From Turneriella parva DSM 21527 (GTDB lineage Bacteria; Spirochaetota; Leptospiria; Turneriellales; Turneriellaceae): a DNA stretch of 64,000 nucleotides. Where the stretch lies: positions 1,178,001-1,242,000 of the forward strand of contig NC_018020.1 of assembly GCF_000266885.1 (NCBI RefSeq), read 5' to 3'. A model generated the notes under the pieces. That model was not told the DNA's origin. It was given only the letters and a program-made list of their open reading frames with translations, and ran no database searches. Both the position numbers and the translations under genes were made by a program. Shown here one piece after another: positions 46,615 through 59,004 of this stretch; within the stretch, counting starts at the first letter, position 1; every line of letters starts with the position of its first letter.

Positions 46615-48168
46615 ATGCTTTACTTTGCCGTATTGGGAATTCTTATGCTGCTCGCGCTTCTGGCGTGGCTCTTGACCCTGCGCAAAAGCAATCCGTTTCA
46701 TATCGTGCAAAAACTGATGGAAGAAGGCCAGTACGACGAAGCGGTGCTAAAGCTCACTGCGATGTCTGAAGATATCGACCTGGCCCCCCGCAGTTATATC
46801 TACCTGGCAGAATGCCATGAGCAGCTTGGGGCGCGCGACCTGGCCCGTACCTGCTACAAAAAGGCAATCGACGCCGGGGCATTCGACGACAAAGACCGCG
46901 AAATCGAGATCTACAAAAAGATTGGTGAAATTTACCGTTCTGAAAACGACACCGAAGGTTTTTTTGAGGTTTGTCTGGAAATATTGCGCCTGAACCCGGG
47001 TGACGAGCTCGCCAACCAAGAGGTCGGCATGATCGCGCTGGGCGACGGTCATTATAGCGTGGCCGAAATCTACCTCAAGGCCGCAATGGCACACAGCGAC
47101 GACCCGCAGCTTGTGCTCGCCTATGCCGTCACGCTCTGGCAAATGGGAGAATGCGACGAAGCCGTTGCGCACGTCGAAAAACTTTTAGCCGACGCCGGAG
47201 AAGAGCACATCTACCGCCTCATGTACGTGACCATGGCGACATTCGGTGTGCACCTGGCGCGCGGGCGGCAGACGGCCCTGAAGCTGATTGCCGATACGCA
47301 AGATGACAGTGTTAAAGAACTGCTCTACAATATTTACCTCTACCAGTGCTATCAGGGCAAAGCTCTGCGTGAAGCGCTCGACTTTTTGAAGCGGCAAAAC
47401 GAGTCGAACAGTTTGCCCGCAGACCGTCGCCGGGAGTATCAGTACCTGCTGTTAATTCTGTACCTAAACGAAGAGATGTTTCTCGAAGCTTCGCGCCTTT
47501 ACCGCGACCTCGCTGAAATCGACGATGAGTACCGCGACCTTAAACACCTCAGGGTGTTCATCGACCAGATCGATCTGAATCCCCATGCCGAGAATTTGAA
47601 GCCGTTCAAGCAAATACTCAAAGACAACTTTGAGCCGCTGCTGATGCCCGATCTGACTTATGCGATTTCAGGCTTTCGCAAGAATCGCGGCCTGGCGATC
47701 ACGAAGTTCTTTGACCTGAGTGGCGATCGGCCTCAGCTACGCATCGAATACGATGTTATGACCGCCGAGAAGAGCGCAGATCTTTTCATGCAGATGATGC
47801 CTGAAGAGTTTCAAAAGTTTGTTTTGTACATCATCACAAATCTCGAATACAATGAACCCGTTAAAGAATCTTCGGGTGAAAAAGATCTTGTCTTGTATTC
47901 GGCGATCTCGTCAAAGAGCAAATCGATTCGGGCGCTGTTTGCGTTCTACCGGCTCAGAACGGGCTCGCACATCAGCGACATTTCATTGCGCAATCTTCAG
48001 AATAAAATGCAGTCGCTTAAGGCAGACAAAACCTATATTATATCGAGCGCGCAGCTCACAGAAGGCGCCGCTGCTCTGATCTTGAAAGAATCGTCACTAA
48101 AGCAATTCGATGCCGAGCATCTCGCCGAATGGCTGCACGACTATTTCAAATCGACGCGCCGGCACTAA
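46615..48168 (+). CDS. Membrane-anchored TPR protein with degenerate Mrr-like nuclease domain
   Basis: The protein has 517 residues. A single transmembrane helix (residues 2-22) is followed by helical repeats to about 330, including the clear TPR segments LAPRSYIYLAECHEQLGARD and PQLVLAYAVTLWQMGECDEA. The last 170 residues follow the order of Mrr-type restriction endonuclease-like domains: MMPEEFQKFVLYII, then GEKDLVLYS, then TYIISSAQLTEGAAALI. The second half of the catalytic motif, normally QxK, reads FYRLR, so nuclease activity is doubtful. It stands alone between rsh and the ABC exporter. Confidence 0.6.
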   Translation: MLYFAVLGILMLLALLAWLLTLRKSNPFHIVQKLMEEGQYDEAVLKLTAMSEDIDLAPRSYIYLAECHEQLGARDLARTCYKKAIDAGAFDDKDREIEIYKKIGEIYRSENDTEGFFEVCLEILRLNPGDELANQEVGMIALGDGHYSVAEIYLKAAMAHSDDPQLVLAYAVTLWQMGECDEAVAHVEKLLADAGEEHIYRLMYVTMATFGVHLARGRQTALKLIADTQDDSVKELLYNIYLYQCYQGKALREALDFLKRQNESNSLPADRRREYQYLLLILYLNEEMFLEASRLYRDLAEIDDEYRDLKHLRVFIDQIDLNPHAENLKPFKQILKDNFEPLLMPDLTYAISGFRKNRGLAITKFFDLSGDRPQLRIEYDVMTAEKSADLFMQMMPEEFQKFVLYIITNLEYNEPVKESSGEKDLVLYSAISSKSKSIRALFAFYRLRTGSHISDISLRNLQNKMQSLKADKTYIISSAQLTEGAAALILKESSLKQFDAEHLAEWLHDYFKSTRRH

Positions 48169-50871: not shown

Positions 50872-53016
50872 ATGGAACCTCTCAAAGAGCTTTCGCATGT
50901 CGTCACAGAATTGCCGCGTGGCGGTTACCTGGTACAAACGCCGGGCGGTTATTTTCAATTTGGCGCTCCGCCTGAAACCATCAAAGATACGATGTTTTTA
51001 CCCGAAGGGGTGCCGACGGTATTCGTTCTGCCGAAGCACTTTTTCAACTGGCGCAAAGGCATAAGCGTCGCCGAACTCGAGTTTCCGATCTACTACAATT
51101 TCTTTCTGAAGAAGCGTAAAACCATTCTCATCTGTAACGAAGAGCAGTTCTTGCGCTTCAAGACTGTTTTTAACGAAGCGGTGTTCGGGCCCAAAGATCT
51201 CGATGTCTCTCGCGACTACGTCGAAGGGCTTGAAGTGCCGGCGCTCAAGCGTGAGATGAAATTTTTCAGCAGCACCTTCAAATTTGCCGACATGGTGGGC
51301 TTTGGCATTTTCAACGAAAAACGCCGCTTCACTTATAAGGGCGTTACCGTCAGCCAAGATGCTGATGATAACTTTCAGGTATCGAGCGGCAGCAAGCACA
51401 TCGCCGATATTCCCGGCAAGATTGAATTCAAAACCATTTACCGAATCGGCGAGCGTCTGCATGAGCCTTTCGTACCCCCATTATTCGGGGTCACCTGCCT
51501 CGGCCCGAGCCATGGATTTGACCCAAGCGAGAACACTTCGGGTTTCACAATTTGGCTGAACCATAGCGGCATCATGATCGACCCGCCGGTCAACACGACC
51601 GAGTGGCTTGAAGATTCGAACGTGAACCCGAAATTTATCGACAGTATTATTCTGACGCACTGCCATGCCGATCACGACGCGGGTACATTTCAAAAGATTC
51701 TCGAAGAAGGCAAGATTACCATTTACACGACCGAAACGGTCATGGGCAGCTTTCTCAAAAAATACTCAGCTCTCGCGAATATCGACGAAAGTTATATGCG
51801 GCGTTTGTTTGACTTTAAACCGGTAAAAGTCGGCCAACCATTTTTTATTCACGGTGGGCGTTTCGAGATTTTTTACACGTTGCACTCGATACCGGCGATT
51901 GGGTTTACTCTGAAGTTTCAAGACCAGTCATTCGTGTATTCGTCTGATCACAATAATGATCCGGTGATTCACGAGCAGCTTCGCGAAAAGCAGATAATCA
52001 GCGAATCGCGCTATAATGCCCTTAGAAACTTTCCGTGGCACAGCAACGTCATTTACCATGAATCGGGCATTGCTCCCCTGCACACGCCCATCGCTCACCT
52101 TGATTCTTTGCCCGACGATGTGAAGAAGCGCATTGTCGTCTACCATATTAGCGAGAAAGATTTTCCGAAACAGACGCATCTGACACTCGCAAAATTCGGT
52201 ATTGAGAATACTCTCTACTTTAATGCGGCTGCACCTGAGAATGTGAAGGCTTCTCAGATTCTTGGCACACTGAAACAACTCGACTTCTTTGAAGACATGC
52301 CGATTTCGCGCGCACAAGAATTCATTGACATTGTTCAGATAGAGCGGTACAAAAAGGGTGATCTGATCATTCAACAAGGCACCAGCGGAGACCGCTTCTA
52401 CATCATCTATTTCGGTTCGGTTTCGGTACGCACTCAAGACCTGCAATCGCGCAAGATCTATGGCGCTTATGACTATTTCGGTGAAGTCGCGCTGGTAACC
52501 AACCAGCTGCGCACGGCTGACGTTGTGGCTGAAACCGAAGTCACACTTTTCACCGTCGAAAAAGACAAGTTCTTGAATTTCATTTCAGGTTCAGAGTTTG
52601 AGAAGATTTTGCTCAAACTCGCCAAGGTGCGTGACGCCGAAACCTGGAACGTCATCTCACAGAGCCGGCAGCTGAATTTTCTCACTTCGACGCAGAAAAC
52701 CTGGCTCGAGTCGATGCTGATTCCCGTCGAGTTTACCGAAAAGGGCCCGATTTACCCCGAAGGTGTGCCGCCACAATACTTCTACATCATACGCTCCGGT
52801 GAGGTGACGCTCACCAACAACGGCGTAGAAGAAGGGCTGCTGACGCGGGGCGATGTTATTGTGCATAGTGAACTTCTCAAAACCGGTCGCGAGAATTTTC
52901 AATACGGTTTCATCAACAAGAGTGAAGCTTCGCTCTATGCCGTTTCACGCGAAGATGCGCTCAAGTTTTTCGACCGCAACCCCGGCGTAAAAATGAAACT
53001 GCAGTACGAGTTCTAG
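50872..53016 (+). CDS. Metallo-beta-lactamase-fold protein fused to two cNMP-binding-type domains
   Basis: The protein has 714 residues. Residues 1-200 are an unrecognised N-terminal region. A metallo-hydrolase domain spans about 205-450, with HCHADHD at 263-269 and further ligands in LHSIP and SSDHNND, so two metals can be bound. A cNMP-binding domain follows (about 475-590), with FGEVAL at 536-541 and LRTAD at 546-550. A second one (about 600-714) lacks that cassette and is probably degenerate. Relatives with this fold hydrolyse phosphodiesters, so a cyclic-nucleotide-controlled hydrolase is likely. It opens a six-gene operon. Confidence 0.85.
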   Translation: MEPLKELSHVVTELPRGGYLVQTPGGYFQFGAPPETIKDTMFLPEGVPTVFVLPKHFFNWRKGISVAELEFPIYYNFFLKKRKTILICNEEQFLRFKTVFNEAVFGPKDLDVSRDYVEGLEVPALKREMKFFSSTFKFADMVGFGIFNEKRRFTYKGVTVSQDADDNFQVSSGSKHIADIPGKIEFKTIYRIGERLHEPFVPPLFGVTCLGPSHGFDPSENTSGFTIWLNHSGIMIDPPVNTTEWLEDSNVNPKFIDSIILTHCHADHDAGTFQKILEEGKITIYTTETVMGSFLKKYSALANIDESYMRRLFDFKPVKVGQPFFIHGGRFEIFYTLHSIPAIGFTLKFQDQSFVYSSDHNNDPVIHEQLREKQIISESRYNALRNFPWHSNVIYHESGIAPLHTPIAHLDSLPDDVKKRIVVYHISEKDFPKQTHLTLAKFGIENTLYFNAAAPENVKASQILGTLKQLDFFEDMPISRAQEFIDIVQIERYKKGDLIIQQGTSGDRFYIIYFGSVSVRTQDLQSRKIYGAYDYFGEVALVTNQLRTADVVAETEVTLFTVEKDKFLNFISGSEFEKILLKLAKVRDAETWNVISQSRQLNFLTSTQKTWLESMLIPVEFTEKGPIYPEGVPPQYFYIIRSGEVTLTNNGVEEGLLTRGDVIVHSELLKTGRENFQYGFINKSEASLYAVSREDALKFFDRNPGVKMKLQYEF

Positions 53017-53017
53017 C

Positions 53018-53449
53018 ATGGCCGCACAGCCGCCACGCGGCATATCGACCCCGAAGTTTCCGTTTCACACGACGCAATCAGAGTTGCGTATTCTCGGTGA
53101 GCTTCTGGCCATCGTCGCTCTGAGAGGCAATAACGCCGCTGAATGGCAAAATGAGGATTTCTTAACCTCACGCAACATCACGACTGCGGCCATCTGCATC
53201 GAAGCTCTCAGAGAGACACTTTTCCCTGAAGAAACAAAACTGCGCAAGAAGCGCGCTGAATTTCTTAGGCCACTCAATGGGTCACCGCTGCGGGCGCACT
53301 TTGACCAGTCACTCGAGACAGCGGTGATTACTTTGCACGCGCAGGTACAGAACAAGGTCGAATATGAGAATCTTTTGAAGCGTCTTCAGGCCTTCAACTT
53401 TGATGAGTGGCAGAACCTTTGTGACGACGAGCGCATCGATGCAGATTGA
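53018..53449 (+). CDS. Small protein of unknown function in the MBL/SPL operon
   Basis: The 143-residue product starts one base after the stop of the MBL-cNMP gene. It is mainly helical, with ELRILGELLAIVALRGNN near the N-terminus and a Leu/Arg/Lys-rich amphipathic middle. No family is recognised. Its 3' end overlaps the start of the radical SAM gene by 11 bases. It could be a helper of either neighbour, but nothing in the sequence shows it. Confidence 0.55.
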   Translation: MAAQPPRGISTPKFPFHTTQSELRILGELLAIVALRGNNAAEWQNEDFLTSRNITTAAICIEALRETLFPEETKLRKKRAEFLRPLNGSPLRAHFDQSLETAVITLHAQVQNKVEYENLLKRLQAFNFDEWQNLCDDERIDAD

Positions 53450-54443
53450 CACCCTATACCTTGAGAAAGGTGCGCGGGACTACGCCGCGGCAGCCCGAAT
53501 CGTTGAAAAACTGAATCCTCAAAAAATCGAAGAGATCGAAGACTACCAGACGATTTTCTCGAAACGCAGGACACCCTACCTGTCGAAGCGCGACACCCGT
53601 AACGTCTTTGTCGCGGTCAAACGCGGCGCACTTGTGAAAGAAGCGCCCGCAGCCTACGGTTACGGCAGCGATGACTTGCACTACTATTATATTCATGCAT
53701 ACAATTGTGTCTATGAATGTGAGTACTGTTACCTGCAGGGTTACTTCAGCTCGCCCGACCTCGTGCTGTTCGTGAACCATGATGAGATCATCAGAGATAT
53801 GCGGGCGATCGCCGCCGCAAGCGCCGCTCAACGGGTCTGGTTTCATGCCGGCGAGTTCAGCGATTCGCTCGCGCTTTCGCACATCACCGCAGAGCTCGCC
53901 GACTACTGGCAGTTCTTTTCAGAAACCCCCAACGCCTATCTGGAGCTTCGCACCAAATCGATCAATCTGACGGCGATGCGCCAGTTAAAACCGATCAATA
54001 ACGCGGTGGTCAGCTTCTCTCTCTCGACGCACACGCAGGCCGCCCGCCACGACCGTGATGCACCTACCGCCTCTCAACGCCTTGCCGCGATGCAGCGCCT
54101 GAAAGAACTCGGGTTTCGGCTCGGCGTGCATTTTGACCCCCTGATCTACGCACCCGATTTTGGGTCTAATTTCGAGGCAATCGTGTGTGACCTCTCTGAA
54201 AGAGTGGGCTTTGCAGGTATCGATTACATCTCGCTCGGTGTCGTGCGTTTCGCTAAAGATGTCTACCGTGAAGCAAAGGAAAATTACCCGGCTTCAGACA
54301 TTTTCGCGCGAAATTTTATTCAGGGCACCGACCACAAAATGCGCTACGTACGCCCGCTGCGCCTGCAAATGCTCGAACTGGGCCGCGAGATTCTGAAAAA
54401 GCATGGTTGCCCTGAAGATAAGATTTACTTTTGCATGGAATGA
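53439..54443 (+). CDS. Spore photoproduct lyase-family radical SAM protein
   Basis: From the ATG at 53439 the product is 334 residues. The radical SAM cluster motif is CVYECEYC, with cysteines at about 90, 94 and 97. This CxxxCxxC in the context YNCVYECEYCYLQGYF and the later HYYYIHAYN and SFSLSTHTQAARHD segments match SplB-like proteins. True SplB repairs spore DNA, but no sporulation genes are here, so this is probably a family member with another substrate. Its stop overlaps the ubiX start (ATGA). Confidence 0.85.
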   Translation: MQIDTLYLEKGARDYAAAARIVEKLNPQKIEEIEDYQTIFSKRRTPYLSKRDTRNVFVAVKRGALVKEAPAAYGYGSDDLHYYYIHAYNCVYECEYCYLQGYFSSPDLVLFVNHDEIIRDMRAIAAASAAQRVWFHAGEFSDSLALSHITAELADYWQFFSETPNAYLELRTKSINLTAMRQLKPINNAVVSFSLSTHTQAARHDRDAPTASQRLAAMQRLKELGFRLGVHFDPLIYAPDFGSNFEAIVCDLSERVGFAGIDYISLGVVRFAKDVYREAKENYPASDIFARNFIQGTDHKMRYVRPLRLQMLELGREILKKHGCPEDKIYFCME

Positions 54444-55075
54444 GCGCCCGACAAATTACCCAGTCAGACACGCAGAATCGTTTTATCATCGGCATCACCG
54501 GTGCGTCAGGCGCTGATTACGCACTGCGACTCATCTGGCGGCTCAGTGCGATCAAAGGCGAAAGCGATGTGATTATCTCGCCGAATTTCTATAAAGTGCT
54601 CGCCAGTGAAGGCGGCATTGACGGCGCCAGCGGTCAAAATCTTCTCGAGATTGCCATGGCCCGCTACGGCAAGACGAGCGACCTGCACGAATTCTCGAAT
54701 CTGGCGTATACGGATATTGGTGCACGCGCTGCCAGCGGTTCGCAAAAATACCGCGCGATGGTGATCGTGCCGTGCAGCATGAAAACGCTCGCAGCTGTCA
54801 CGCATGGCCTAAGCCAGAATCTTATCGAACGCGCGGCAGATGTATCGCTGAAAGAACGGCGAACGCTTATTGTTTGCCCGCGCGAATCGCCGTTGAGTAC
54901 AATTCATCTGCGCAACATGCTCGCGCTCAGCGAGGCGGGTGCAATTGTAATGCCGCTCATGCCTGGATATTACCATAAACCTCAAAACATTACCGACCTC
55001 TATGATTTTATGGTCGACCGTATCATGCAACACCTCGGGCTGAGCGAACGGGCGATCGAACCATGGCAAGGTTGA
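54440..55075 (+). CDS. ubiX: Flavin prenyltransferase UbiX
   Basis: The 211-residue product carries the UbiX signatures: GITGASGADYALRL near 20, the VIVPCSMKTLAAVTHGLS segment near 115, the CPRESPLS segment and MPLMPGYYHKPQ near the end. The enzyme adds a dimethylallyl group to FMN to make the cofactor of UbiD-type decarboxylases. No ubiD gene is in the window. Three alternative ATGs lie just upstream, but the one at 54440 gives the usual ATGA overlap. Confidence 0.92.
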   Translation: MSARQITQSDTQNRFIIGITGASGADYALRLIWRLSAIKGESDVIISPNFYKVLASEGGIDGASGQNLLEIAMARYGKTSDLHEFSNLAYTDIGARAASGSQKYRAMVIVPCSMKTLAAVTHGLSQNLIERAADVSLKERRTLIVCPRESPLSTIHLRNMLALSEAGAIVMPLMPGYYHKPQNITDLYDFMVDRIMQHLGLSERAIEPWQG

Positions 55076-55833
55076 TCGTTTGTCTATTGGCATTTGTGCC
55101 GGCGTTGCACCCGATTGCCGTCGAATACGACCTCGATCGGCCGCTTGAGTCACCTGGCACCTGGCGCTATCACCAAAGTTCACATTTCTATGCGCAACAC
55201 CGGTGCGGTGAATCGCAGCTACAGGCAATTGGCCGGCGCATTCAGAGATTTCTCGAGGCACCAGAAAGGCAGCGCGCGGCAGAATTGGGCCCGGTGCTGC
55301 AGGTGCGACTATATGCCTCTGCAGCCGACTATCGCAAGAACCTGAAATTCTCAAAATACCGTGACGGCCACTATAACCGCCGCCTGGGCATCATAGTCAG
55401 CTACTGCGATGTACCGGCGCACCGCCTGGCAGAGCAAATGACCTTGTACGCACTCGCCGATAAGCCGCTGCGCAAATGGCAGCGGGTTTTTCTTGCTGAG
55501 GTTATTCCTGTTTTGGCCGGGCGCAACCTGCAGAGTGCATTCGACGACGTGGGTAAAGACAAGCCTGCAGCCCTGTTGCCAGTTTTATATTCAAACCACT
55601 GGCCGGGGCGAAGCGAGCGGGCCACTTTAAGACTGCTCGCGATTCACCTCGCCGATCGTCAGCTGCTCGAACCCTTTGTTGAAAGGCTACTTGAAGCGGC
55701 GGCAGCAGATGACACGGGTCTCGAATTGCTCGAAAGCCTGACAGAGGGCAACATTGCGCCGCTGGCCGAGAGCATCGCGGGCGCCGCGGCGGCGAATGGC
55801 AATAAAACTTTACGCAAAGGCCAAACGAAATAA
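55063..55833 (+). CDS. Secreted protein of unknown function
   Basis: The product is 256 residues with a signal peptide (LIVCLLAFVPALHPIA). The ATG overlaps the ubiX 3' end by 13 bases. The core has a HQSSHFYAQHR segment and the helix HRLAEQMTLYALA, in an arrangement a little like peptidase MA-type domains, but no HExxH zinc motif is present, so a catalytic role is doubtful. It lies directly upstream of the pyrophosphatase-like gene (13 bases) and is probably co-translated with it. Confidence 0.55.
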   Translation: MARLIVCLLAFVPALHPIAVEYDLDRPLESPGTWRYHQSSHFYAQHRCGESQLQAIGRRIQRFLEAPERQRAAELGPVLQVRLYASAADYRKNLKFSKYRDGHYNRRLGIIVSYCDVPAHRLAEQMTLYALADKPLRKWQRVFLAEVIPVLAGRNLQSAFDDVGKDKPAALLPVLYSNHWPGRSERATLRLLAIHLADRQLLEPFVERLLEAAAADDTGLELLESLTEGNIAPLAESIAGAAAANGNKTLRKGQTK

Positions 55834-55846
55834 GCGTACTCCCTGA

Positions 55847-57922
55847 ATGTTCGGCTTCATCGTTCTACTCGCTATCGCCTCGGCTTCGGCCATTCTTCTG
55901 CTCTGCATCGCGCAGCTGATACGCGTGCCTGAAAACGGCGTGGCAATGCCCACCGCCGATTCTGGCATGCTCGTTTATCGCCGGCCTCTTTATCGTGCAG
56001 TTGCCGCCGCGGCAGCGGTATTTTCACTCATGCTTGCTGCAGGCTATTACTTCGATTTTGCGCGAAACAAAATTTCAGACTGGAAAATACTTTTGCTCAC
56101 CTCAGGCGGATTTCTGCTTTTTCTGGTGGCGGCAATCGCCAGCGAGTCATTACTCCGGTACATGAAGCGGCGCGTAGTGCAGCTGCAGAAAGAAACCATT
56201 AGCCGTATCTTCAGACAAGTGCTTTACGCTGGCGCACTCATGGGGCTCGGCGCAGTTCTGATGGCGATCGTTTATGCATGGCTGGCGCAGAGCCAGAAAA
56301 ACCAGATGACGCAGCTCTATCTGATACCGGCCTATGCGGGCGCGCTGCTGATGTTCTACCAGCGGTTTCATGTCGCGCTGACTGCCCGCTCGGCCGATTA
56401 CGCGTTTGAACTCATGGCCCGCCAAGAAGCATTACTTCCGCTGGCGGGCGCGTCGAATCCGCTATGGCGGCTGAGGCAGTCTTTTGCCGCCATTAACCGC
56501 TTTCTTTTCTCGCACCTCGAATACCTGGTGCTCGCAGTCGTCGTGCTCACGGTCTCACACCAGATCGAAGCGCAGACGAAACTGCCTTCTAATCTGGGTG
56601 CGACGGTCTCGTTGACAGTGTTTGCGATCGGCGTTATTGCGACAATACCTGCGCTCTTTATAATGCGGGTCAGAGAAAAAACATCACCCGAGACGTTTCT
56701 GTGGAATATCCGCATCGGCTATGTTGCGTCTCTGGGCGTACAGGCAGTCATTACGTATGTCGTGCTCGTTGTATTCGCACAGTTGCACATTAAATTCTTC
56801 TGGATTACATTCATCGGTTCACTGACTGCCCTGCTGCTGAATGTCTATTCTGCCGCCTTCGTCGCAGAAAATCACAAGACAGCACGGGGTCTCATTGCCG
56901 CAGCCGCCAGCTCCGTTTCGACAGTGGTTCACCGTGGTATAGCAGCCGGCATGCGGGGCGCAGCGGTGCCGGCGCTGATTGTCGCCTTCATGATGGGTCT
57001 TGTCTACCTGATGGGTGTTGTCGACGAGAAAGGCGAAGACCGCTTTGTGTACGGCCTGTTTGCCCTTGCTTTGGCGCTCACGTCGATGGTATCGCTCTTC
57101 ACTGTTGCGCAGGCGACTGCTGTCATAACTTCAATCGCTTCGCATTTTATCGCCGAGGCGAAGCTCAATTACCGCAAGGGAGAAATGCACTCGGCGCTTG
57201 AAAAATTCAGAATCTTGCGCAGTATCTCTTTGCCCTCATACGTGCTGCACGGTAAGATCATGCTCTCGGCGCTCGCGATGCTGATTTTTCTCGTGTACAC
57301 ACAGCTTTTGAGCGAAGCAGGCGCCGCCACTCTGTTTAAGCACCTGACGGAAACAGCTACGCTTCTGCTGGGCGGCATTACAACCTATTATCTTTCAGCG
57401 CGCGTCAATGAATTGGTGCTGAATCTCGGGCCCTTGATGGTGCGTGAAACCAGCAGGCAGTTTCGGGAAATGCCCGGGCTCATGGCTGGCGAAGTACCAC
57501 CCGACACGGGGCAACTGCTCACAATTTCGCGCCAGTATCTGACGCGCAAAATTATGCCGCTATTCTTGCTCGCTATGTTTTTGCCTGCAGCTGCCTGTCT
57601 AATGGGTGGCATATATGGATTAACAGGCTACCTGATTGGCTTTGGTTTCTTTACATTTCTCAGCGCCAACAGCTGGCTCACCACCGGTGCAGCCTGGTCG
57701 AGCGCGCGCCACGCGGCCGAGGCCGATGCTCAGGTATCAAGGCACACTGCCCAGCTCGAGGCGTTGACGCAGGCCGATATTGTCGGCGACTCAATGCACG
57801 AGGCGGCAGCCCCGACGCTGGCGGCGGCAGTGCATGTGACGATAATCGCATCGCTCATATTTACACCCGCGACTCTCGAGCTGCACACGCAACTGCGCGA
57901 ATTCGTCAAAACTTTTTTCTGA
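55847..57922 (+). CDS. Membrane-bound pyrophosphatase homologue lacking catalytic motifs
   Basis: The 691-residue, roughly 16-helix protein has the length and motif order of proton- or sodium-pumping pyrophosphatases. RQFREMPGLMAG at 537-548 matches the conserved RQFREIPGI, and the downstream ISRQYLTRKIMP, GAAWSSARH and IVGDSMHEAAAPTL segments line up with family segments. The catalytic residues are gone. The GDNVGD region is replaced near 207-220, DNAKK near 616-621 reads SSARH, and GDxxxDPxKDTAGP near 647-656 reads GDSMHEAAAP. It is unlikely to hydrolyse or pump. A structural, transport or regulatory role is possible. It ends a six-gene operon. Confidence 0.85.
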   Translation: MFGFIVLLAIASASAILLLCIAQLIRVPENGVAMPTADSGMLVYRRPLYRAVAAAAAVFSLMLAAGYYFDFARNKISDWKILLLTSGGFLLFLVAAIASESLLRYMKRRVVQLQKETISRIFRQVLYAGALMGLGAVLMAIVYAWLAQSQKNQMTQLYLIPAYAGALLMFYQRFHVALTARSADYAFELMARQEALLPLAGASNPLWRLRQSFAAINRFLFSHLEYLVLAVVVLTVSHQIEAQTKLPSNLGATVSLTVFAIGVIATIPALFIMRVREKTSPETFLWNIRIGYVASLGVQAVITYVVLVVFAQLHIKFFWITFIGSLTALLLNVYSAAFVAENHKTARGLIAAAASSVSTVVHRGIAAGMRGAAVPALIVAFMMGLVYLMGVVDEKGEDRFVYGLFALALALTSMVSLFTVAQATAVITSIASHFIAEAKLNYRKGEMHSALEKFRILRSISLPSYVLHGKIMLSALAMLIFLVYTQLLSEAGAATLFKHLTETATLLLGGITTYYLSARVNELVLNLGPLMVRETSRQFREMPGLMAGEVPPDTGQLLTISRQYLTRKIMPLFLLAMFLPAAACLMGGIYGLTGYLIGFGFFTFLSANSWLTTGAAWSSARHAAEADAQVSRHTAQLEALTQADIVGDSMHEAAAPTLAAAVHVTIIASLIFTPATLELHTQLREFVKTFF

Positions 57923-57931
57923 AGCGCCCTG

Positions 57932-58588
57932 CTAACCCTGCATAATCTGCAGATTGCTGTGTATATGGCTGCCCGCCAGCGCAGAGCGGCTGGTTTTTAT
58001 TATGTAGGCTGCCAGCGCCTCTGCGGGCGTGGGCTGCACGCTGCTGAGTCCCGGTAATTTGAAAAGCGGAGAAAGCACGCCGGTGACAACACTCGCCAAT
58101 TTTTCGCCTGTGCGGTGTTCTTTGCGGTCACCGATGAGCAGCGAGGGTCTGTAGAGATGCAGCGCAGGCAGGTTCAAGGCCATCAGCTTTTGTTCGACCT
58201 CGCCCTTGACCCGATTATAGAAAATGCCAGATTTGGGTGAAGCACCATGCGCGGTGACGACGTGCAGCGAGCGAGCGCCCAGCGCGAGCGCCTCTGCCGC
58301 GAAGTTTACAACAAAATCGTAATCCACCTGACGAAATGCTGCCTGACTGCCGGCCTTCTTGATGGTCGTACCCAGTGTACAAATTGCAATGGGAGCTGTT
58401 GGTTTCTTTCCAGGCCATACGACAGACGTCGTAAAGCTATGCGGCACGAAATGCAGGTTCGCTGATTCTGGCCCAGGGGCACTGCGGCCGAGGCACCAGA
58501 TCTCAGCCCCACCCTGCGCGATCAGCTGCTTCACCACTTCTGTACCGACGAGGCCTGTGGCGCCCGCGATGATGTAATCTGTTTGCAT
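57932..58588 (-). CDS. NAD(P)-binding Rossmann protein (HTATIP2/YbjT-like atypical SDR)
   Basis: The ATG at 58588, preceded by AGGGGACAG, gives 218 residues. The opening AGATGLVGTEVVKQL binds the nucleotide. ICTLGTTIKKAGS and the VTAHGASPKSGIFYNRVKGEVE segment, with the tyrosine and lysine pair, follow as in the HTATIP2-like group. Substrates are unknown. It lies downstream of the DCC protein gene, with a gap of 29 bases, and probably shares its transcript. Confidence 0.85.
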   Translation of the reverse strand: MQTDYIIAGATGLVGTEVVKQLIAQGGAEIWCLGRSAPGPESANLHFVPHSFTTSVVWPGKKPTAPIAICTLGTTIKKAGSQAAFRQVDYDFVVNFAAEALALGARSLHVVTAHGASPKSGIFYNRVKGEVEQKLMALNLPALHLYRPSLLIGDRKEHRTGEKLASVVTGVLSPLFKLPGLSSVQPTPAEALAAYIIKTSRSALAGSHIHSNLQIMQG

Positions 58589-58617
58589 GTCTGTCCCCTG
58601 GTGATTTTTGCCAATGT

Positions 58618-59004
58618 TCAATCGAGAAAGCGCGCCCGCAATTCGGGTGTCGGCAGATAGCAGGCTTCGCGTTTACCGAACCATCGATAGCGATTGCGCG
58701 CAACGAAGCGATAGAGAGCATTCGCCATGAATGCGGGCACCAGTCGCCCCAGGCTGCCGAAAAATCGCCACGGTTGTTTCAGGTATTCGCTGATGGCGAT
58801 AACAGCTTCGGCTTCGAGGCAGAGGCGCCCCTGCACAGAAAACACGATGCTATCGGGCAGAGCCAAGGTATGAGCAGAATGTTTTTTTTTGAAGGTTTCA
58901 CCCTGCAGAGGCGCGAATTTTACCACGTGGTTTCGTTCATGCCGAATGATAAACTGAACAGCGCCGTTGCAGAGATTGCAGACGCCGTCGAAGAATATTA
59001 TGGG
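58618..59004 (-). CDS. Thiol-disulfide oxidoreductase DCC-family protein with no standard start codon
   Basis: The signature FFDGVCNLCNGAVQFII, with the two cysteines, is encoded upstream of the first standard start (GTG at 58926) in the same frame. The frame is open back to a TGA just before 59046, yet holds no ATG, GTG or TTG ahead of the motif; only CTG (59046), ACG or ATA codons are available. The C-terminal half has KKHSAHTLALPDSIV and a PWRFFGSLGRLVPAF helix, typical of DUF393. The first part overlaps the lysophospholipase 3' end in another frame. The true start is therefore unknown; the coordinate given marks the certain coding part. Confidence 0.7.
   Translation of the reverse strand, partial: PIIFFDGVCNLCNGAVQFIIRHERNHVVKFAPLQGETFKKKHSAHTLALPDSIVFSVQGRLCLEAEAVIAISEYLKQPWRFFGSLGRLVPAFMANALYRFVARNRYRWFGKREACYLPTPELRARFLD

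Follow-up and report, generated by a model that had tools for sequence, protein, structure and literature searches.

The window analysed here, a stretch of 64,000 nucleotides from the Turneriella parva genome (4,409,302 bases in two contigs), contains the gene of a membrane-bound pyrophosphatase (mPPase) homologue that we call P0001. The open reading frame lies at positions 55847-57922 on the forward strand, starts with ATG and encodes 691 amino acids without interruption, as a preliminary description made from the letters of the sequence had stated. That description also placed the gene in an overlapping operon. The upstream pairs do overlap by 13 bp (53400-54443 with 54431-55075, and 54431-55075 with 55063-55833), but the P0001 gene, the final member of this co-oriented run, starts 13 bp clear of the ORF before it (55063-55833). 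A convergent gene (57932-58621, reverse strand) faces it from downstream. The parts of the gene referred to below are listed here, with substitutions written as Vigna residue > P0001 residue; a residue count along the phmmer alignment confirmed the Vigna numbering.

55847-57922, forward strand: coding sequence of P0001, a probable non-catalytic mPPase homologue of 691 aa, identified by PF03030 and the AF2 fold; stop codon at 57920-57922
56324-56428, forward strand: TM5 active-site remnant, residues 160-194, with R173 (=R242), R181 (=K250), D184 (=D253), E188 (=D257) and E194 (=E263) invariant in eight orthologues
56459-56533, forward strand: loop 5-6 and TM6, residues 205-229, corresponding to DNVGDNVGD minus six residues; D279>R210, D287>S212 (variable), D294>F219
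56663-56719, forward strand: residues 273-291, MRVREKTSPETFLWNIRIG, forming cytoplasmic loop 7-8; no other stretch is as conserved in the clade (0.88, against 0.46 in classical mPPases)
56867-57019, forward strand: loop 9-10 and TM10, residues 341-391, ENHKTARGLIAAAASSVSTVVHRGIAAGMRGAA..., TM10 being a dimer-interface helix of known mPPases; conservation above that of classical mPPases
57038-57316, forward strand: TM11-TM12 region, residues 398-490, in which the equivalents of D500, D507, N534 and K541 are lost (A425, S432, I456, P463)
57455-57478, forward strand: RQFREMPG motif, residues 537-544, in the TM13-14 turn; present in P0001 but not in the active divergent paralogue
57680-57721, forward strand: equivalent of NxGGAWDNAKKYIE, residues 612-625, TTGAAWSSARHAAE; D691>S618, N692>S619, K694>R621 and K695>H622 in 8/8 orthologues
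57773-57814, forward strand: equivalent of GDTVGDPxKDTxGP, residues 643-656, ADIVGDSMHEAAAP; D644 and D648 kept, K730>H651 and D731>E652 in 8/8 orthologues

Comparison of the gene contexts of the orthologues revealed no neighbour common to all of them. An obligate operon partner was rejected, as the UbiX/SPL genes and the gene for a 256-aa neighbour are not adjacent in three genomes (G062, G220 and G141). Upstream in the window, 53400-54443 (forward strand) encodes a radical SAM protein resembling spore photoproduct lyase (PF20903, 67 bits), and the next gene, overlapping it by 13 bp, encodes a UbiX-like flavoprotein; to our knowledge, spore formation is not known in spirochaetes. The gene at 50872-53016 (forward strand) encodes a fusion of a metallo-beta-lactamase domain with two cyclic-nucleotide-binding domains; its product shares 97% identity with that of the nearest relative, a conservation well above that of the neighbouring genes. 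A TPR protein encoded at 46615-48168 (forward strand) has a C-terminal match to the Mrr-type restriction endonuclease domain (PF04471, 24.8 bits).

In a Pfam search P0001 matched PF03030 with 128.8 bits against a cut-off of 29.7 (E 3.6e-37), residues 230-672 aligning to model positions 226-645, and all six clade members scanned matched. This profile search, which the preliminary description had proposed as a check, thus places P0001 in the family. Solved mPPases were matched at E about 1e-12 in phmmer searches. The best score against the NCBIfam mPPase equivalogs, TIGR01104 among them, was 119.8 bits against cut-offs of at least 546, so that the functional-family cut-offs were missed. An AF2 model was built from an alignment of eight sequences, six from the clade and two classical mPPases, and reached pLDDT 79 and pTM 0.85; the classical pair steers the fold, which makes the model no independent evidence of homology, and an earlier run on the six clade sequences alone gave pLDDT 45. 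Classical mPPases, such as the T. maritima Na+-PPase (4av3), the V. radiata H+-PPase (4a01) and the P. aerophilum enzyme (8b37), have about 700 residues and the same helix arrangement, and structural alignments of the P0001 model with them gave Z 33-36 and 3.1-3.4 Å over 625-667 residues at 16-17% identity. The match to 8b37 had Z 36.3, with 639 residues aligned at 3.1 Å. All the solved mPPases listed were good matches and no other chain was, the next unrelated one having Z 7.9. The model therefore shows P0001 fitting the predicted 16-TM mPPase fold over essentially its whole length, in agreement with the colinear family match, RQFREMPG at 537-544 included, that had been noted from the letters.

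The active-site residues were mapped across eight orthologues, seven divergent paralogues and 24 classical mPPases of the phylum. Like classical mPPases, P0001 keeps RQFRExPG and, besides R242, D253 and E263 in TM5, also E698 (E625), D723 (D644) and D727 (D648). Unlike them, it has lost or replaced D279, D283, D287, D507, N534, D691, K694, K730, D731 and K541, as well as D294 and K742 of the gate, and has a six-residue deletion in TM6. The new residue is fixed in 8/8 orthologues at K250>R181, D257>E188, D270>G201, D279>R210, D294>F219, K541>P463 and A537>S459, and likewise at D691>S618, N692>S619, K694>R621, K695>H622, K730>H651 and D731>E652. Lost or variable positions are D283 and N284, which fall within the deletion, D287, D507, N534, N738, K742 and E6.53. 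Thus GDTVGDPxKDT reads ADIVGDSMHEA and DNAKK reads SSARH, and the loss of catalytic residues, as first noted, is common to all eight orthologues. The description of the motifs as replaced by neutral residues goes too far, since TM5 and TM16 keep charges and several changes are K to R or H, or D to E. A charged pocket remains in TM5 and TM16, with some aspartates unchanged and others conservatively swapped.

The published mechanism of mPPases involves a Mg5-PPi cage, water activated by D6.43 and D16.39, and a gate (PMC10897367, PMC5150537). The Asp/Asn/Lys set that binds Mg5-PPi and activates water is not present in the clade: the TM6, TM11, TM12 and TM15 ligands are absent from the orthologues. 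Of the ion gate (R242, D294, K742 and a semi-conserved Glu) only R242 is kept; D294 is Phe, K742 and E6.53 are variable, and E225 of P0001 lies one residue away from 6.57. The possibility that the catalytic aspartates had shifted position, raised at the outset, was excluded: no acidic residue (D or E) occurs in P0001 at residues 195-224 (loop 5-6/TM6) or 596-624 (TM15), acidic substitutes are likewise missing near the TM11 site, and the clade conserves none at the ligand sites of TM11 and TM12. Read through the published mechanism, these losses mean that cage, water activation and gate should be unable to form. Because the catalytic residues of TM6, TM11, TM12 and TM15 and most of the gate are gone, P0001 is very likely a pseudoenzyme of the mPPase fold that neither hydrolyses PPi nor pumps ions.

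Comparison of the gene with its 85%-identical orthologue gave dN/dS values of 0.039 (NG86) and 0.055 (YN00), with dS saturated or near saturation. Active divergent paralogues gave 0.04-0.08, on a par with the P0001 pair. Across eight genomes the frames are intact and dN/dS is 0.04-0.15. Of the 13 former active-site positions present in P0001, ten are invariant in the clade, against 180 of 678 positions elsewhere (Fisher p 2.6e-4), and most of them carry new fixed residues. Because dN/dS is about 0.04-0.06, the gene is under strong purifying selection and not in decay; a functionless relic of a replaced pump, suggested by the long branch of a duplicate in genomes with another mPPase, can be dismissed in view of the intact frames at 49-85% identity and dN/dS of 0.04-0.15 in eight genomes, and of altered residues that are fixed and do not drift. 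The low dN/dS of 0.04-0.06 and the conservation of the altered residues in eight genomes bear out the earlier proposal that the gene is selected for another function. Since the catalytic machinery and gate are lost yet selection is strong, the job of P0001 is presumably something other than PPi pumping.

Conservation per column was compared between the clade and classical mPPases at equal mean identity (0.57). It fell by 0.09 in the catalytic helices and rose by 0.16 in helices 10, 13 and 15 (Mann-Whitney p 1e-7, columns treated as independent). Loops 7-8 and 9-10 rose from 0.46 in classical mPPases to 0.87-0.88 in the clade, about +0.4. Helices 10, 13 and 15 form the dimer interface in known mPPases, and an inter-subunit coupling route runs from E5.71 to R13.62 (PMC10897367). 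E5.71 (E194) is kept in 8/8 orthologues, and R537, at the end of TM13, in seven of the eight; R537 is one of a pair of arginines, either of which may be R13.62. Judged from these columns, constraint has left the catalytic helices for those of the dimer interface and for the cytoplasmic loops 7-8 and 9-10.

Among 393 Spirochaetota genomes searched, orthologues (50-85% identity) were limited to the genus of T. parva, where they occur in 7/7 genomes, and one sister genus of the same family (G220). Beyond them scores fall to 118 bits, and the catalytic motifs are present in the 22 proteins examined next, two of which have one WDNAKK variant each. In all eight genomes with a P0001 orthologue there is another PF03030 gene, of a divergent type. 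Its complete copies score about 590-600 bits, and its product has Lys at the K+ site and every catalytic residue. Another 22 genomes have this divergent type but lack the P0001 gene, making 30 in all. Family members without the P0001 gene have a classical mPPase (G156, G048 and G125) or none (G017 and G090). A further degenerate paralogue was rejected, a weak match in G220 (17 bits, L055) being an RND-like transporter-type ORF when judged by eye.

The T. parva paralogue (G000:C1:1979117-1981573; L065:9118-11577) probably belongs to the divergent Na+-regulated H+-PPases (Luoto et al. 2015, cited in PMC10897367). P0001 belongs to the same fold family as these enzymes, and an active paralogue of this probable type is found in the same genomes. 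The two proteins are opposites: the active-looking paralogue has the catalytic set and K+-site Lys that mark the divergent subfamily and lacks RQFRExPG and E263, whereas P0001, with S459 at the K+ site and the catalytic set lost, keeps both of the latter.

In phylogenetic trees the P0001 clade was monophyletic (support 100/100) on a very long stem of 5-7 changes per site. When the long-branched divergent group was left out, the clade joined the classical mPPases of Leptospirales (support 40/99.9), and with the full set this placement was 0.6 lnL below the best tree (p-AU 0.44). Joining the clade to the divergent group was 5.6 lnL worse (p 0.22) and to the L032 group 4.9 lnL worse (p 0.23), and neither was rejected. 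P0001 most likely descends from a classical mPPase of the Leptospirales line, an origin that these trees support in part. The most economical story would be that the ancestral classical pump became jobless once the divergent pump was present and was then kept for something else, with PPi pumping in this lineage carried by the divergent H+-PPase-type paralogue. Elsewhere in the family, the classical mPPases of G156, G048 and G125 (L059, L060 and L068) fall into two subclades, suggesting that the pump was repeatedly replaced or transferred within the family.

The partly conserved pocket, the loss of the gate, the constant divergent mPPase companion and the shift of constraint to interface helices and cytoplasmic loops, on which the preliminary description was silent, bear on what P0001 may do. 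P0001 appears to retain the membrane fold, the dimer-interface helices (TM10, 13 and 15) and a remodelled, charged cytoplasmic pocket lined by R181, D184, E188, R210, S618, S619, R621, H622, D644, D648, H651 and E652. It would form a dimer, and the pocket may bind a small ligand without Mg, with Arg and His holding what is probably an anion (Pi, PPi or some other phosphate compound). Movements of TM5 and TM13 would be relayed across the dimer interface and reach loops 7-8 and 9-10. The known mPPase topology puts these loops on the cytoplasmic side, and they may serve as an output surface contacting a partner. P0001 would thus probably be a dimeric, non-pumping membrane protein with a sensing or regulatory role. 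We give a probability of roughly 0.45 to the statement as a whole, namely a pseudoenzyme of classical descent that acts not as a pump but as a ligand-binding dimeric sensor or regulator in the membrane. The charged residues could instead be a structural salt-bridge network, which would speak against a ligand pocket. For the broader statement, that one genus-level lineage has put the mPPase fold to a non-pumping use as receptor, regulator or altered transporter, with a pocket rebuilt from the active site, the balance is favourable, and it would be the first known case.

P0001 might also be a repurposed transporter, whose vertical pore would carry a different solute, either passively or with H+ coupling; a divalent metal bound at the D/E/H cluster of TM5, TM15 and TM16 is one example. 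This is favoured by the retained fold and pocket and by the invariance of the acidic and histidine residues D184, E188, H622, D644, D648, H651 and E652, as well as of E225 and R218 of TM6 near the old gate. At gate position D294, however, every orthologue has Phe, and both K742 and E6.53 vary, unlike a selected conduction path; nor was any transport gene found consistently linked to the orthologues. We consider this reading unlikely.

The constant companion raises a different possibility, that P0001 is a regulatory subunit that pairs with the divergent active mPPase of the cell in a heterodimer, an asymmetric pump of which P0001 would be the half that does not hydrolyse. The P0001 gene always occurs with the divergent mPPase (8/8 genomes) and in none of the five family members without it; in mPPase dimers the two subunits differ in function, hydrolysis falling to one while the other is auxiliary (PMC8469034, PMC9408878), and the raised constraint falls on the interface helices of P0001. 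Yet 22 of the 30 genomes with the divergent mPPase have no P0001 orthologue, and the co-occurrence is perhaps a single inherited event. The proteins are also very distant, a P0001 search at E 1e-3 missing the divergent paralogue in its own genome. A co-evolving interface was sought in the active paralogue and none was found: one of 117 columns showed a change specific to genomes with the pseudo-pump (p 0.56). A heterodimer is accordingly doubtful. That P0001 has remained a pyrophosphatase by rearranging its active site is highly improbable: some pocket charges are kept or conservatively swapped, and some pseudoenzymes possibly use migrated catalytic residues (PMC10211241), but the TM6, TM11, TM12 and TM15 ligand sites have no conserved acidic residue at or near them, and nucleophile-activating D287 and coupling K541 (P in 8/8) are lost.

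The preferred reading, a pseudoenzyme with a sensing or regulatory role, has parallels in other families. The trypanosome AdoMetDC prozyme is a catalytically dead paralogue (PMC5201418), and as in such pseudoenzymes the catalytic residues of P0001 are lost while fold and oligomer surfaces are under selection; unlike them, it derives from an integral-membrane ion pump. None of the other known ion pumps is homologous to the mPPases (PMC9408878). In the literature searched, with partial coverage, every described member of the family is a PPi-coupled pump, and we found no description of an mPPase-family pseudoenzyme. The P0001 clade is very likely a pseudoenzyme lineage within a known family, and its hosts are free-living spirochaetes. 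If the assignment is true, a catalytically empty yet selected member would show that the mPPase fold is open to another use. The clade would also offer a natural test of which parts of the dimer serve communication and which serve chemistry, a question central to the debate on functional asymmetry. Annotation by family alone labels P0001 a pyrophosphatase, which calls for caution.

GTDB genome contigs, scanned with 8-residue peptide patterns that reach close relatives only and so do not survey other phyla sensitively, yielded five MAG contigs, all from the same group as the clade. The clade had no match in IMG/VR contigs, and on plasmids only ordinary mPPases were found. Two IMG/VR contigs classed as viral (L070 and L071) carry complete ordinary mPPase genes, one of which adjoins phage-like ORFs as judged by eye; these contigs are probably prophage flanks.
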